DNA from: Tenacibaculum mesophilum
GTDB taxonomy: Bacteria; Bacteroidota; Bacteroidia; Flavobacteriales; Flavobacteriaceae
Direction: 5' to 3'
Assembly: GCF_003867075.1 (NCBI RefSeq)
Contig: NZ_CP032544.1
Span: forward strand, 2,722,001 to 2,786,000
Length of the DNA: 64,000 bases
The notes below the pieces were generated by a model that was given only the letters and a program-made list of their open reading frames with translations, had not been told where the DNA came from and searched no databases. The translations under genes were made by a program, and so were the position numbers. Below are positions 11,287 to 16,119 of this stretch, piece after piece. Position 1 is the first letter of the stretch; each line of letters begins with the position of its first letter.

Positions 11287-11616
11287 TTATAAAGAGAAAC
11301 TCTCTCCGCAACCACAAGTTCTGTTAGCATTAGGATTGTTAAATACGAATCCTTTACCGTTTAAACCTCCAGAATATTCTAAAGTTGTTCCAACTAGGTA
11401 TAAAAAACTCTTTTTATCAACAATAATTTTTACATCGTTGTCTTCAAAAACCTTGTCGTTTTCCTGTTGGGTTTTGTCAAAAGTTAAGTCGTATGATAAT
11501 CCTGAACAACCGCCACTTTTTACCCCAACACGAACAAAGTCAGTTGTAGTGTCAAATCCGTCATCAGTCATTAGTTCAATGACTTTCTTTTTTGCTGTGT
11601 CTGAAACTTTTATCAT
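11287..11616 (-). CDS. A-type Fe-S carrier (IscA/SufA/ErpA family)
   Basis: Small cytosolic carrier that receives Fe-S clusters and passes them to apoproteins. From the ATG at 11616 it is 109 residues with the three invariant cysteines Cys37 (SGGCSGLSYDL), Cys101 and Cys103 (TCGCGESFSL), at the spacing of this family. A longer frame reaches 11661 but adds residues without similarity and would begin upstream of the -7 box at 11647-11654, so 11616 is preferred. It is the first gene of the leftward suf operon, 33 bp before sufB. Which A-type subclass it belongs to cannot be settled by eye. Confidence 0.95.
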   Translation of the reverse strand: MIKVSDTAKKKVIELMTDDGFDTTTDFVRVGVKSGGCSGLSYDLTFDKTQQENDKVFEDNDVKIIVDKKSFLYLVGTTLEYSGGLNGKGFVFNNPNANRTCGCGESFSL

Positions 11617-11646: not shown

Positions 11647-11654
11647 CAAAGATA
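11647..11654 (-). promoter_or_regulatory. -7 box of the suf operon
   Basis: On the minus strand the sequence reads TATCTTTG, an exact match to the Bacteroidota -7 consensus TAnnTTTG, 30 bp upstream of the preferred start of the A-type carrier. No good TTG -33 box lies 19 bp upstream of it. It supports the shorter start at 11616. Confidence 0.6.
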
Positions 11655-11752: not shown

Positions 11753-12820
11753 TTATTGTTTGAAATCAGTATTATTTACAAAATCATCATCAGAAAGGGT
11801 TAGCAAAAAAGCTTTTAAGTCTGCTTTATCTTTATCTGAGAGTTGTACTCCTCCTTGATTGGCTTTCTTCATTAAGGGATCTATTGTAGAAGATAATTTT
11901 AAACCTTCAGAATAATGGTTTATAACTTCTTCTAAAGTAGTAAACCGTCCATCGTGCATGTAAGGAGCGGAAAATTTTAAATTTCGTAGAGAGGGGCTTC
12001 TAAACTTTCCGTTATCATTAGGGTCACCTGTAACGGTGCCTAATCCTAAATCGGTAAAATTTTCATCTAAACCGTTGTTGTGGAATTTGTTATCTGTCCA
12101 TAAAGGGTTGTTGTCGCTTCCATGACAATGAAAACAGTCTCCTCTAGTTTCGTCCATAAACACATTAAACCCATTTTGTTCTTCAGGAGTTAACTCTACT
12201 TTACCTAAAAGGTGTTGGTCAAATTTTGAATTTCCAGAAATTAGAGTTCTTTCAAACTGAGCGATTGCCTTGGTAACTAATGTTGAGTCTATTTTTGATG
12301 CTCCAAAAGCTCGTTGAAAAAGGGTCGGGTATTCAGCGTGTTCTTGTAGTTTTTTAGTTACATTTTTCCAATCACTGTGCATTTCAATTGGATTACGAAC
12401 AGGAGAGAATACTTGACGTTCAATACTGAGTTCTTTTCCGTCCCACATAAAACGTTCATCAAAATTCCAAGCTAAATTAAATAGCGGCATTGAGTTTCGC
12501 GTTCCGAATTTACCATCGACTCCTTCACTAAAACGAGTGTCATCGGTAAAAGCATTTTTAGGGTCGTGACAACTAGCGCAAGATTGTGTGTTGTCTTTTG
12601 ATAAAATAGGGTCAAAAAACAATTTTTTACCCAAAGCTATTCCTTCTTTTGTTAGAGGATTGTTAGCTGGAATAACAGGAGCTATTAATTTTTGTTGAAA
12701 TAATTTAGGGATTTCTAAACTGGTAGGAACAGGAGTATATATACTTTCTTCTTCTCCTTTAGAAGAACAACTAAGTAAAAGAAACAGTAGAAAAGAAAGA
12801 TATATACTTTTTAGCATCAT
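11753..12820 (-). CDS. MbnH/MauG-like di-heme cytochrome c peroxidase family lipoprotein
   Basis: The 355 residues have a lipobox ending in Cys18 (LLLSCSS). There are two c-type heme motifs: CASCH (Cys81, Cys84, His85) and CFHCH (Cys229, Cys232, His233). Further family marks are FMWDGKELSIERQ (Trp126) and SAPYMHDGRFTTLEE near 285-299. Classical bacterial CcpA reduces H2O2 and MauG-type members oxidise residues in a partner protein. The gene directly follows an MbnP-family gene with 2 bp between them. By analogy with the MbnP/MbnH pair, its likely job is H2O2-dependent oxidation of a Trp in that partner to kynurenine. The partner assignment is inference; the di-heme family is certain. Confidence 0.9.
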   Translation of the reverse strand: MMLKSIYLSFLLFLLLSCSSKGEEESIYTPVPTSLEIPKLFQQKLIAPVIPANNPLTKEGIALGKKLFFDPILSKDNTQSCASCHDPKNAFTDDTRFSEGVDGKFGTRNSMPLFNLAWNFDERFMWDGKELSIERQVFSPVRNPIEMHSDWKNVTKKLQEHAEYPTLFQRAFGASKIDSTLVTKAIAQFERTLISGNSKFDQHLLGKVELTPEEQNGFNVFMDETRGDCFHCHGSDNNPLWTDNKFHNNGLDENFTDLGLGTVTGDPNDNGKFRSPSLRNLKFSAPYMHDGRFTTLEEVINHYSEGLKLSSTIDPLMKKANQGGVQLSDKDKADLKAFLLTLSDDDFVNNTDFKQ

Positions 12821-12822
12821 TA

Positions 12823-13581
12823 TTATTGAGAAATATTTCCTAAACTAAATACACCACTTTTCCCATTTTCAGAAATTTCTTTCTGAGCTTCAAAATCCAT
12901 CATTAAGTCAACACTTTTTTTGGTTAAATCCCAGTCATTAGGGCTTTTAAACCATCCAGCTACATTCATTTTAATTTCTATTGTAGCATTGTTTTTTAAG
13001 AGGATAGAGCCAGTTTCAATTCCAAAAGAAGTATCTAAAATAGAATCTTTTTCTTTGTCATAAGCTCTTACAGCATGAAAATTATATGGGTTTTCTACCC
13101 CTAAGGTGTCTTTGTATTTACCGTCTAATTGCATAAAGTGGTATCCTCCTCCCATCATATCTGGTACATTCCAATCAGCAGAGTTTAAATCTGGATATGT
13201 TCCACTTAAATTGTTACTATTATTAAAACCGAAGGTAAAAAGTAGTTTATAGCTTCCTTCTGATATTTTTTTAGAAAGAGCGTAGGTTAAACTGTCTGGT
13301 TTACTTAGGTCAATTAGTTTGTAACTGTCAAATTTAGTTGTATCTCCTGCACCATTAACAAGGCTAATACGTGAGATTAAATAGCGTAATCTGCTTATAG
13401 AGAGTTTACTTCCTTTTTTATTAGTGAATTCAGTGCTTTCTAAGTCAGATTTTTCAATTAAAGTACCATCCCAATTTTGACTAAATTTTAGTTTTACTGA
13501 AACTTCTTTGATAGGTTCATCATTATCTGAGCTACAAGAAAATAGTAATAGACTAAGGGAAAAAGTTAAAAAGTATTTCAT
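12823..13581 (-). CDS. MbnP-family lipoprotein
   Basis: The 252 residues have a lipobox with Cys16 followed by SSDNDEP, an acidic stretch that suggests export to the cell surface in flavobacteria. Family marks are LSISRLRYLISRISLVN (about 55-71) and MMGGGYHFMQLDGKY, both typical of MbnP proteins, which bind copper and are matured by oxidation of a Trp to kynurenine by MbnH. Candidate Trp residues include those in ADWNVPDMMGG, NVAGWFKSP and NDWDLTKK. It lies 3 bp after the propeller gene and 2 bp before the di-heme gene in the same operon. Family assignment is by motif recognition. The kynurenine chemistry is established for a methanotroph pair, not for this one. Confidence 0.8.
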   Translation of the reverse strand: MKYFLTFSLSLLLFSCSSDNDEPIKEVSVKLKFSQNWDGTLIEKSDLESTEFTNKKGSKLSISRLRYLISRISLVNGAGDTTKFDSYKLIDLSKPDSLTYALSKKISEGSYKLLFTFGFNNSNNLSGTYPDLNSADWNVPDMMGGGYHFMQLDGKYKDTLGVENPYNFHAVRAYDKEKDSILDTSFGIETGSILLKNNATIEIKMNVAGWFKSPNDWDLTKKSVDLMMDFEAQKEISENGKSGVFSLGNISQ

Positions 13582-13584
13582 TTA

Positions 13585-14910
13585 TTATTTTAGTTTGATA
13601 ATTAGTAGGTCTGAAAACCCCTTGTTTGTTGTTATATCTTGGTTATTGCTGCTACTATCGCCTACAGCTATAATACTACCATTTGTTAATTCTACAGCAT
13701 CGTAGCAAAAATCTATTTCTGTTCCTCCAACGGTTTTTTGCCATAATAGATTTCCATCTGTATCAATTTTCATAATCAATGCGTCATTTTGACCTTTATT
13801 GATGAAATTGTTGTCAGCGCTTCTTGAACTTCCAGAGATTAAAAAATCTCCGTTCAATGTTTTTTTAATCGATCTGCCAACATCAAAACTCGAACCGCCA
13901 TAGTTCTTTTGCCAAAGCAATGCTCCTTGACTTGTTATTTTTACAACCCATAAATCGGCACCACCATTGTTTTGAGAAATGTCTTGATTAAAGCTACGTG
14001 TATCTCCTACTATAATGAAGTTTCCATCATTGGTTTTTGTTATTGCTCTAGCTTCATCAATTTCTGTACCACCAAAAGATTTTTCCCAAAATAAATTTCC
14101 ACTTTTATTAATCTTAACAACCCAAAAGTCATAAGAGCCCTTGTTGTTTTTTATATCTACATCATTACTGTCTGAAGAACCAATTAATAAATAGCCGTCA
14201 GCTGCTTCTGCTACGTCGTAACAAGTATCAGTATTTGTGCCTCCAAAGTATTTTCTCCATTCAATATCTCCGTTAATATTGAGTTTAACTCCCCAATAGT
14301 CTCCACCGGCATGTTTGGCTGCTTGTTTTGAATTACCTAAGCCTCCAGATGCTGTAACATCTAGAATACTTCCAACAAAATAACCTCCATCAGAAGTCTG
14401 AATAATTGAAAAACCTTGGTCAGCTCCAGAAAAACCAGTAGTTTTTTTCCATACTATTGTGCCGTTGTTGTCTAGTTTTAATACCCAAACGTCATCAAAC
14501 CCTTCGTTTGTATTTACATCTCCATCATCACTTTTTCCGTAACCTACAATAGCAAAACCATTATCTTTTGTTTTAATAATTTTAGATGCTTTGTCATCTT
14601 TTGAACCGCCATAGGTTTTTTGCCATATAAGGTTATCATTGGAGTCAAACTTTAAAATCCAAAAGTCGTATTGAATTATATTTTTAGTGGTTTCTATATC
14701 TCCATCAATACTTTGAGTATAACCAGCTATAATATAGCCTCCATCAGTAGTGCTAATTACACTTCTACCGCTTTCATTTATAGAACCGCCCAAAGTTTGA
14801 ACCAAACTAACTTTAGGGATTTTGGTTGTAGAATTAAGTTGTATACCATCATCTTTATTACAGCTGTAAATAATTAATAAGAAAATTAATAATGGGAGTT
14901 TTTTAAGCAT
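13585..14910 (-). CDS. Seven-repeat beta-propeller lipoprotein
   Basis: The 441 residues have a lipobox (IIYSC, Cys17) followed by NKDDG. The body consists of seven repeats of about 55-60 residues. Each has a DGGYIIAGYT-like strand, an FWILKFD/WVVKI strand and a closing LIWQKTYGGSxxD motif (variants IVWKKTTGFS, IEWRKYFGGT, LFWEKSFGGT, LLWQKNYGGS, LLWQKTVGGT). Seven repeats suggest a closed seven-bladed propeller anchored in the membrane. No enzyme motif is seen. It abuts the upstream gene with no spacer (stop and start adjacent) and lies 3 bp before the MbnP gene. The role is probably binding or display within the same system. Confidence 0.75.
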   Translation of the reverse strand: MLKKLPLLIFLLIIYSCNKDDGIQLNSTTKIPKVSLVQTLGGSINESGRSVISTTDGGYIIAGYTQSIDGDIETTKNIIQYDFWILKFDSNDNLIWQKTYGGSKDDKASKIIKTKDNGFAIVGYGKSDDGDVNTNEGFDDVWVLKLDNNGTIVWKKTTGFSGADQGFSIIQTSDGGYFVGSILDVTASGGLGNSKQAAKHAGGDYWGVKLNINGDIEWRKYFGGTNTDTCYDVAEAADGYLLIGSSDSNDVDIKNNKGSYDFWVVKINKSGNLFWEKSFGGTEIDEARAITKTNDGNFIIVGDTRSFNQDISQNNGGADLWVVKITSQGALLWQKNYGGSSFDVGRSIKKTLNGDFLISGSSRSADNNFINKGQNDALIMKIDTDGNLLWQKTVGGTEIDFCYDAVELTNGSIIAVGDSSSNNQDITTNKGFSDLLIIKLK

Positions 14911-16119
14911 TTATTGTTTTTTAAGGATAAATAAACCTCTATTAATGTCGCTTACCACAATTTTTCCGCTTTTAAAGTAGGGGTATACGCTCCAAACACC
15001 ATTAAAATCAGCATTATCATTTTCAGGGTGTGTATCAAAGAAATTTGTTTCGGTAATAGTTTTACTCTCTATATTTGAAATGTCAATAAAACGTACACCA
15101 GCATTATAGTTTGCTAAATAAAAAGTACTTCCTTTAATATATCCATTATGATCAATTGCCGAAGTAGGTCCTGTGTATATAAAGTGTTGTTTAGGGTTCT
15201 CTAAATCAGAAAAATCAAAAACAATAGTCCTTGTATTGTGACCGAAATTTTGTTCATCTAACTCGTCTCCTAAAATAAAATATTTTTGATTTTCAGTAAA
15301 CCAACCTTGATGTGTATAACCAACGTTTGCATATGAAACTTTAGAAATGTTTACAGGGTTTGCTTTATCAGTAATGTCAACAATTACGACCTCATTTTCA
15401 TTACTTCCTATTAGTATTTCTTTACCTATGTAATTTGTGTCTGGTCCATTGTAGGTTACCACTTGTGCATCATGACTATAATTGTCCATTCCCCATCCAC
15501 CTTCATTTATTGGATTTAGAGGATTTTGTATATTGATAAATAAAGGACCTCCTCTATATGTTCCAGATCTATTTGTACCCACAGGGTATGCGTATCCTGA
15601 ATTTTCATTAATAACAATGTTGTGTGCGCTACCAAAACCAGTAAAATGCTTGTCAGCTACAAACGTTTTTGGAGGGTTTGTAATATTTCTAAGTTTTGTT
15701 AAGTCAAATACTTGCATACCATGATTTGTAGCCTCACTAACAATAAAAGCATGGTTGTTATATACCTTCACATCCCACCAACTTTTACTCGTAGTTGCAG
15801 TTGGAAGTTTGCCTAAATAAATAGGGTTTTCTGTATCGGTAATATCAACAAAAGTAGTTCCATTATCTACACACATAATAGCGTATTCTTTGTTGGTTGT
15901 TGGATCTGTCCATCCCCAACAGTCACTTCCGCTAACAGCATCAAATGTGCTTAGAGGTATGTTTAATAGTAAATCATAGCCATCACAAGAATAAATTCCT
16001 GCTTTTCCATTAGAGCACGCAGTTTTATTGGTTTTTATTGGAGTTTCGCTAGAAGAGGATGTGCAAGAAGCTAAAAACAGCATTCCAACTAAAACGAATA
16101 AGGTTTTAAAGTTTTCCAT
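14911..16119 (-). CDS. Choice-of-anchor B / LVIVD-repeat lipoprotein
   Basis: The 402 residues have a lipobox (LASC, Cys19). The body matches the choice-of-anchor B family built from LVIVD-type repeats: TTFVDITDTENPIYLGKLPT, GMQVFDLTKLRNITNPP, VVIVDITDKANPVNISKVS and GVRFIDISNIES are successive copies. SGSDCWGWTDPTTNKEYAIM and a Cys-rich start (KTACSNGKAGIYSCDGYD) are also seen. These repeats form a beta-propeller. The biochemical function is unknown to me. It is the first gene of the leftward four-gene operon that ends with the MbnP and di-heme genes. No sorting domain for type IX secretion is present; anchoring is by lipid. Confidence 0.78.
   Translation of the reverse strand: MENFKTLFVLVGMLFLASCTSSSSETPIKTNKTACSNGKAGIYSCDGYDLLLNIPLSTFDAVSGSDCWGWTDPTTNKEYAIMCVDNGTTFVDITDTENPIYLGKLPTATTSKSWWDVKVYNNHAFIVSEATNHGMQVFDLTKLRNITNPPKTFVADKHFTGFGSAHNIVINENSGYAYPVGTNRSGTYRGGPLFINIQNPLNPINEGGWGMDNYSHDAQVVTYNGPDTNYIGKEILIGSNENEVVIVDITDKANPVNISKVSYANVGYTHQGWFTENQKYFILGDELDEQNFGHNTRTIVFDFSDLENPKQHFIYTGPTSAIDHNGYIKGSTFYLANYNAGVRFIDISNIESKTITETNFFDTHPENDNADFNGVWSVYPYFKSGKIVVSDINRGLFILKKQ

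Follow-up and report, generated by a model that had tools for sequence, protein, structure and literature searches.

An operon of Tenacibaculum mesophilum and its relatives joins two propeller lipoproteins to a divergent MbnP/MbnH-like pair

The stretch of DNA studied here, referred to below as the window, comprises 64,000 nucleotides of the genome of Tenacibaculum mesophilum (contig NZ_CP032544.1, positions 2,722,001 to 2,786,000 of the forward strand). The genome is a single contig of 3.34 Mb. The minus strand of the window carries four genes (Table 1), which are transcribed in the following order: a choice-of-anchor B propeller (ChoB), a second propeller resembling SBBP lipoproteins, an MbnP-like protein and an MbnH-like di-haem enzyme. 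The open reading frames (ORFs) are separated by 0, 3 and 2 bp, and a lipobox-like Cys can be read from the translation of each product (LASC, YSC, FSC, LSC). A preliminary description of this DNA proposed a four-gene operon of lipoproteins that includes an MbnP/MbnH-like pair. The ORF coordinates, the lipoboxes and the family assignments agree with it; the assignment of MbnP is supported by profile and fold, and that of the enzyme by PF03150.

Only a handful of pairs are known whose haem enzyme makes a copper site through oxidation of a Trp. MbnP/MbnH is one; apart from CorA/MopE we know of no other. The MbnP-like product gives the PF20243 match that the preliminary description led one to expect (86.3 bits with a gathering cut-off of 27) and has the fold of 7l6g, the MbnP of Methylosinus trichosporium. 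The best NCBIfam match of the enzyme is still TIGR04039, with 260.3 bits, which is under the cut-off of 362.85; PF03150 is the CCP_MauG family. The enzyme has two CxxCH motifs as well as W126 and Y303, which we take to be the inter-haem Trp and the axial-type Tyr. ChoB is a clear member of the choice-of-anchor B family TIGR04312 (554.4 bits, cut-off 100). The second propeller matches the SBBP lipoprotein LipL53 family NF047494 only loosely, with 51.8 bits under a cut-off of 400.

Table 1. Genes of the operon and codons discussed in the text (window positions)
Feature	Position	Strand	Support
ChoB, choice-of-anchor B propeller lipoprotein, 402 aa, first gene	14911..16119	-	TIGR04312, 554 bits; seven-blade model, pLDDT 92.8
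SBBP/delta-60-like propeller lipoprotein, 441 aa	13585..14910	-	NF047494, 51.8 bits, below cut-off
MbnP-like lipoprotein, GGG type, 252 aa	12823..13581	-	
MbnH/MauG-like di-haem lipoprotein, 355 aa	11753..12820	-	PF03150, 199.5 bits; 6e1c, E 5.2e-51
ChoB H166 codon, blade 3	15622..15624	-	alignments and model
ChoB H216 codon, blade 4	15472..15474	-	alignments and model
ChoB H270 codon, blade 5	15310..15312	-	alignments and model
ChoB H324 codon, blade 6	15148..15150	-	alignments and model
MbnP W137 codon, aligned to first Trp of WxW	13171..13173	-	hhalign; W 83/92, F 9/92
MbnP PDMMGGG stretch, residues 140-146, insert replacing rest of WxW	13144..13164	-	GGG 92/92
MbnP H148 codon, gained, nearly invariant, proposed metal ligand	13138..13140	-	H in 91/92 GGG and 0/36 WxW entries
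MbnP H169 codon, common to WxW type, proposed metal ligand	13075..13077	-	H in 92/92 GGG and 36/36 WxW entries
MbnH first CxxCH haem motif, C81-H85	12566..12580	-	
MbnH second CxxCH haem motif, C229-H233	12122..12136	-	F230 and G227 specific to GGG-type partners

Homologous loci were collected with a search profile of 73 MbnP homologues (A1), which was run on 249 genomes of the family and 296 genomes of the phylum. Matches in the family sample form two classes: strong ones in 81 genomes (E < 1e-70, nearly always full-length) and weaker ones, which are mostly partial and between 1e-9 and 1e-23. We took 119 stretches, mostly of about 20 kb, and added the window and eight Tenacibaculum loci. The resulting table contains 128 loci (the window, L001-L008 and L069-L187); L184 has no labelled MbnP and L186 has two, which gives 128 MbnP entries. 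They include 92 of the window's type, designated GGG, and 36 of the type designated WxW. Two of the 81 GGG genomes (G090 and G108) lie outside the table. The WxW loci were picked, mostly best scoring first, and their context counts describe a non-random sample. The trees are quick ones with modest support, and they leave out L001, L003 and L004 as near copies.

The gene order, whose comparison across relatives the preliminary description proposed, is kept in 87 of the 88 GGG entries from Flavobacteriaceae, in none of the four from other Bacteroidota families and in seven of the 36 WxW entries. In all, the full four-gene set surrounds 94 of the 128 MbnP entries. The median intergenic gaps in these operons are 8.5, 3 and 5 bp; the widest, 4091 bp, is found in L162, where other genes sit between MbnP and MbnH. 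The SBBP-like propeller is present in 94/94 full operons by definition of the set, and ChoB has two to five copies in 32 of them (at most seven same-strand genes upstream were counted). ThiL and SufB genes are both found in the stretch for 85 of the 91 operons tested (80/84 GGG and 5/7 WxW; the three near copies omitted). The tree of these two markers covers the 85 operons plus L218, L220 and L114.

The presence of ChoB and of GGG-type MbnP is associated at the level of genomes, too (the lists used for this co-occurrence contain 119 and 138 genomes). ChoB exceeds its cut-off in 138 of the 249 family genomes. Of the 81 genomes with GGG-type MbnP, 80 also have ChoB, and the remaining one, G210, has an orphan MbnP. 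The Fisher test for this association gives p = 6e-26 with relatedness ignored. WxW-type MbnP is not tied to ChoB (18 of 46 with ChoB, fewer than expected). On the conserved order and this co-occurrence we reject the idea that the propellers are chance neighbours.

The association is one-sided. In 49 of the 249 genomes ChoB is present without a clear MbnP (48 have no match, and G046 has a marginal, partial one). In three of the four such loci that were viewed (L218, L220 and L221), ChoB and SBBP genes lie upstream of SUF genes, with neither MbnP nor MbnH in between. The thiL gene adjoins ChoB in L220 and lies outside the stretch in L221; in L218 it follows a 974-aa gene with a lipobox-like start (L218:5700-8624). 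In the fourth locus, L219, ChoB adjoins thiL and there is no SBBP. These observations suggest that the pair depends on the ChoB/SBBP propellers and not the reverse. Thus the propellers, to which the preliminary description assigned no role, are not bystanders: they include the widespread part of the system, ChoB, and the MbnP/MbnH pair is the optional part.

Seven operons hold a WxW-type pair in the position of the GGG pair. On the MbnH tree the partners of GGG and WxW proteins are separated by one change, and the enzymes of the WxW operons cluster as a single group inside the WxW enzymes. The five usable WxW operons are scattered on the marker tree: they need five changes when set against all rows, four of them forced, and four changes when only GGG and WxW rows are counted. 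On the ChoB tree they need five changes, two of them forced. The single split on the MbnH tree combined with the scatter on the marker tree looks like an exchange of the pair as a unit. Alternatively, the two types could be old duplicates that once stood at one place and were differentially lost. Two WxW-type MbnP/MbnH pairs in tandem in L186 (at 7477 and 9513) are in keeping with such a history, as are the modest support of the trees and the mere two WxW changes that starred branches of the ChoB tree force. We nevertheless find it doubtful: no tandem of a GGG and a WxW pair occurs in the 94 full operons, and the WxW operons fall into a single enzyme group yet need five changes on the marker tree, four of which are forced. 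Two further observations concern individual WxW pairs. In the WxW-type operon L153 (G087:C1:987013-987774) the MbnP has one in-frame TAG according to the profile match, and one MbnH among the WxW pairs is without the first CxxCH.

The two types of MbnP differ at the WxW stretch. The motif is found in all 36 WxW entries and in 7l6g (GMAWNWQAG); at this place GGG-type proteins have (W/F)-x-(V/W)-P, a few residues, and then GGG-Y-H. In an hhalign comparison of the types, the first Trp of the motif aligns with W137 of the window protein and the second with V139, and the His that all WxW proteins have aligns with H169. The window protein reads W137-N-V139 and does not have the WxW motif of TIGR04052, and this profile (MbnP_like_WxW) gives no match for it at E 0.1. 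Little weight attaches to this miss, as the WxW protein of this genome falls short of that cut-off too (43.7 bits of 140). Among the 92 GGG entries position 139 is Val in 71, Trp in 17 and a gap in four. Position 148 is Lys, Arg, Ile or Gln in the WxW entries and never His. Among 120 homologues listed of 895 found, H148 is His in 120, W137 is Trp in 103, Phe in 16 and a gap in one, and H169 is His in 118 and Tyr in two. The only GGG entry with a changed H148 (Tyr, in L114) is also the only one without MbnH, and the propellers are absent from it too; this is a single case, with the pattern expected if H148 matters only together with MbnH.

The idea that GGG proteins had lost the whole WxW region was dropped, since hhalign and the deep members of the type (NMEWP..MGGG) put W137 on the first Trp. 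The deep MbnPs, which come from other Bacteroidota families (L149:9622-14115, L150, L151 and L152), read M-x-W-P..MGGG-YHYM. In L149 a TonB-dependent receptor gene comes after the pair. The 17 GGG members with Trp at position 139 (L117, L118, L122, L125, L127, L129, L130, L132, L135, L138-L144 and L146) read W-x-W-P; they include all eight GGG entries that lost W210 (to Phe or Leu) and most of those that lost M150.

The ChoB model reads as a seven-blade propeller. H166, H216, H270 and H324 lie at or next to the start of the presumed inner strands of four successive blades, and the remaining blades carry W68/W70, W114 and W376. These His and Trp residues are invariant in 142 operon copies wherever the residue is aligned. 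In the model, a ring of His at the mouth of the propeller suggests a metal. To our knowledge, no function has been assigned to the choice-of-anchor B family. Foldseek search with the model gave the propeller phosphotriesterase of Sphingobium TCM1 (5hrm), which we take to be a metal enzyme, as the best match (E 4.9e-11). The sequence comparison of ChoB with 5hrm is not significant (E 0.092). ChoB has no match to the SBP56 Pfam family, LVIVD being the sole family listed at E 0.1; no SBP56 structure is among the matches listed for the fold, which excludes nothing. We therefore do not claim a phosphotriesterase-type or SBP56-type identity for ChoB, given this E-value and the Z-scores of 5hrm, which are tied with those of WD40 proteins.

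The MbnH-like enzyme appears to be intact throughout the GGG type. All 91 partners of GGG entries retain both CxxCH motifs and the compared Trp, Glu, His and Tyr. Residues G227 and F230 are the same in each of the 91, and partners of WxW proteins have other or varying residues here; therefore enzyme and partner diverged together. In nine of the 92 GGG entries, which belong to several lineages, W137 is replaced by Phe, and the nine adjacent enzymes all keep their haem ligands. The replacement needs four changes on the MbnH tree, three of them forced by starred branches, and eight on the SufB+ThiL tree, which is a rough species marker. The repeated loss of W137 beside an intact MbnH implies that there must be more to the system than oxidation of W137. 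Thus the interpretation in the preliminary description holds for families, operon, lipoproteins and gene order, and is not supported, as it stands, where it carried over the conversion of Trp to kynurenine: the second Trp is Val in the window, and the chemistry is not simply transferable because the first is Phe in nine entries with an intact enzyme.

The simplest form of that interpretation is ordinary copper capture, in which MbnH would turn W137 into kynurenine and MbnP would bind Cu(I) for uptake, with the propellers not directly involved. A copper reading stays reasonable, though it needs a different site and very likely ChoB as a client. Ordinary capture itself we regard as unlikely, since W137 is lost in several lineages that retain MbnH, H148 and the insert differ from canonical MbnP, a WxW-type pair is already present elsewhere in the genome, and GGG-type MbnP is tied to ChoB. 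The canonical MbnP site presumably involves kynurenine, Met and His.

MbnH could also be a peroxidase-like or other oxidative enzyme that acts on another target, namely H2O2, a different Trp of MbnP or one in ChoB, for example in W68-G-W70, with MbnP as a copper-free docking or electron partner. This would explain why the Phe137 lineages retain the enzyme, and candidate targets are at hand: W217 is Trp in all 88 Flavobacteriaceae entries (Tyr in the four deep ones), and ChoB has fixed W68, W70, W114, W273 and W376. We consider this quite unlikely, as the H148/H169 pattern resembles a metal site, the Tyr and the Trp at the presumed axial and inter-haem positions are as in MbnH/MauG and not as in a plain peroxidase, and the ChoB Trp are equally fixed outside the operon. 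The last point (29/29 non-operon copies) weakens W68-G-W70 as a target. There is also no single universal substrate Trp besides W137, for W37, W210 and W217 are Trp in 83, 84 and 88 of the 92 entries only.

The explanation that we tentatively prefer, while giving it somewhat less than an even chance as a whole, is that the operon encodes a metalloprotein system of the cell envelope, probably of the cell surface, with a propeller core and an exchangeable copper-protein/di-haem accessory. The ChoB-SBBP pair would form the core, and the four invariant His of successive ChoB blades would probably hold a metal at the channel mouth. MbnP and MbnH would be an accessory pair added to this core. MbnP would carry a rebuilt Cu(I) site with a retained H169, a new H148 and, in most members, the original W137, closer to the two-His-plus-kynurenine site of CorA/MopE than to the site of canonical MbnP. 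The MauG-like MbnH may oxidise MbnP at W137, if present, or at another conserved Trp (W217, W210 or W37), and the matured MbnP may then supply copper or redox equivalents to the propeller proteins. A more specific form, which we find somewhat unlikely, is that GGG-type MbnP is a second design of a protein-derived copper site (two His and kynurenine or another oxidised Trp) that converged on CorA/MopE, and that it forms with its MbnH an exchangeable cassette supplying cofactor to ChoB, a surface propeller metalloprotein carried by many Bacteroidota.

Several known systems resemble parts of this scheme. In comparison with MbnP/MbnH of M. trichosporium (7l6g and 6e1c; TIGR04052 and TIGR04039), the window MbnP has Val for the second Trp, an MGGG insert and the gained H148, the enzyme is below the TIGR04039 cut-off, and the operon contains propeller genes. 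The window ChoB likewise differs from the choice-of-anchor B family at large in being joined to MbnP/MbnH. The methanotroph systems CorA/CorB and MopE/SACCP consist of a secreted protein and a di-haem partner. According to PMC3912023, the copper site of CorA/MopE is formed by two His, kynurenine and water, and the proposed H148/H169/W137 site is similar to it, as judged by conservation only. CorA/MopE gives no sequence match and is not among the fold matches listed for the window MbnP. The mtoX-SCO1/senC-mauG operon of the SBP56 methanethiol oxidase shows the same logic: according to PMC5739008, a copper enzyme, with copper proposed on strictly conserved His, is encoded with SCO1 and mauG genes, i.e., a His copper enzyme with a copper-handling partner and a MauG-like one. 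In the window operon, ChoB has no SBP56 Pfam match, and MbnP stands at the place of SCO1. A paper of 2013 (PMC3621798) already noted MbnP/MbnH pairs in organisms far outside the methanobactin producers.

Some observations weigh against the envelope metalloprotein explanation. The His and Trp residues of ChoB are equally fixed in 29/29 copies outside the operon, and so ChoB needs no MbnP for them. The deep GGG entries have MbnH and no propeller beside the pair, and so the pair can work alone; in favour of the explanation, ChoB is present elsewhere in all four of their genomes, three of which belong to a single genus. The Phe at position 137 weakens the case for kynurenine at that site; and, as 17 of the 92 GGG members still have W-x-W ahead of the insert, not all have lost the second Trp. 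The Fisher test ignores relatedness, and by Z-score 5hrm is tied with many WD40 scaffolds. Finally, the metal in MbnP and ChoB is something that we infer, as are the oxidation and its site, the delivery and the surface location.

If the envelope metalloprotein explanation is correct, it provides a first lead for the choice-of-anchor B family, as a metal-dependent envelope protein, and suggests what the client of MbnP/MbnH pairs might be in bacteria other than methanotrophs. The clade itself has mostly lost the second Trp, has gained a nearly invariant His and is tied to a single propeller family; it amounts to a natural experiment, with W137, F137 and WxW proteins at the same operon position. 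The neighbourhood analysis of Kenney 2019 and Manesis 2021 may already mention Bacteroidota pairs. In the literature searched, no publication combines the term "choice-of-anchor B" with "MbnP", and the phrase "MbnP family" is absent.

The sequences following the lipobox bear on the location of the proteins. According to PMC5080379, the lipoprotein export signal of Bacteroidota consists of one polar or charged residue and acidic residues after it. We counted copies that pass a strict lipobox test, out of 94. Of 86 such MbnPs, 82 have at least two acidic residues among the six that follow the Cys; for control lipobox ORFs from these loci the figure is 142 of 258, and the counts are 53/63 for SBBP, 49/58 for MbnH and 25/38 for ChoB. 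Judged by this signal, MbnP is likely to be exposed on the surface, and the other three plausibly are. The anchor of ChoB varies: a lipobox-like Cys is present in 62 of the 94 nearest copies by a loose test and in 38 by the strict one, and the C-termini of ChoB in some relatives look by eye like type IX secretion tails.

The genome encodes a second pair. About 108 kb from the window MbnP, from G000:C1:2626470 onward, there is a WxW-type MbnP of 264 aa (LTWSWQAGYKF), accompanied by a separate di-haem gene (343 aa), whose product scores 233.4 bits against TIGR04039. This pair (L148:8915-12344, at about 2.626 Mb of G000:C1) lies between a 130-aa protein with a CNGKC motif on its upstream side and, downstream, a 328-aa one with a DCDACGCS motif, both without Pfam matches. 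Many other WxW pairs are flanked by genes of similar length. The preliminary description saw no methanobactin gene, and the MbnB-type methanobactin enzyme family PF05114 indeed has no match anywhere in the genome, in a search that did not extend to precursor peptides.

The window MbnP is 92% identical to the MbnPs of several named Tenacibaculum species. By Pfam, the window operon is flanked by a thiL-like gene and SUF genes. Counts of regulatory sites between 11550 and 16350 are uninformative: there are 12 promoter-like sites against 20.1 in shuffles, and one terminator-like site (plus strand, inside ChoB) against 2.1. TATCTTTG occupies 11647-11654 of the minus strand and precedes the SUF-operon gene that starts at 11616 by some 30 bp. 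The SUF genes may have their own promoter, because this sequence fits TAnnTTTG, which we take to be the flavobacterial -7 consensus.

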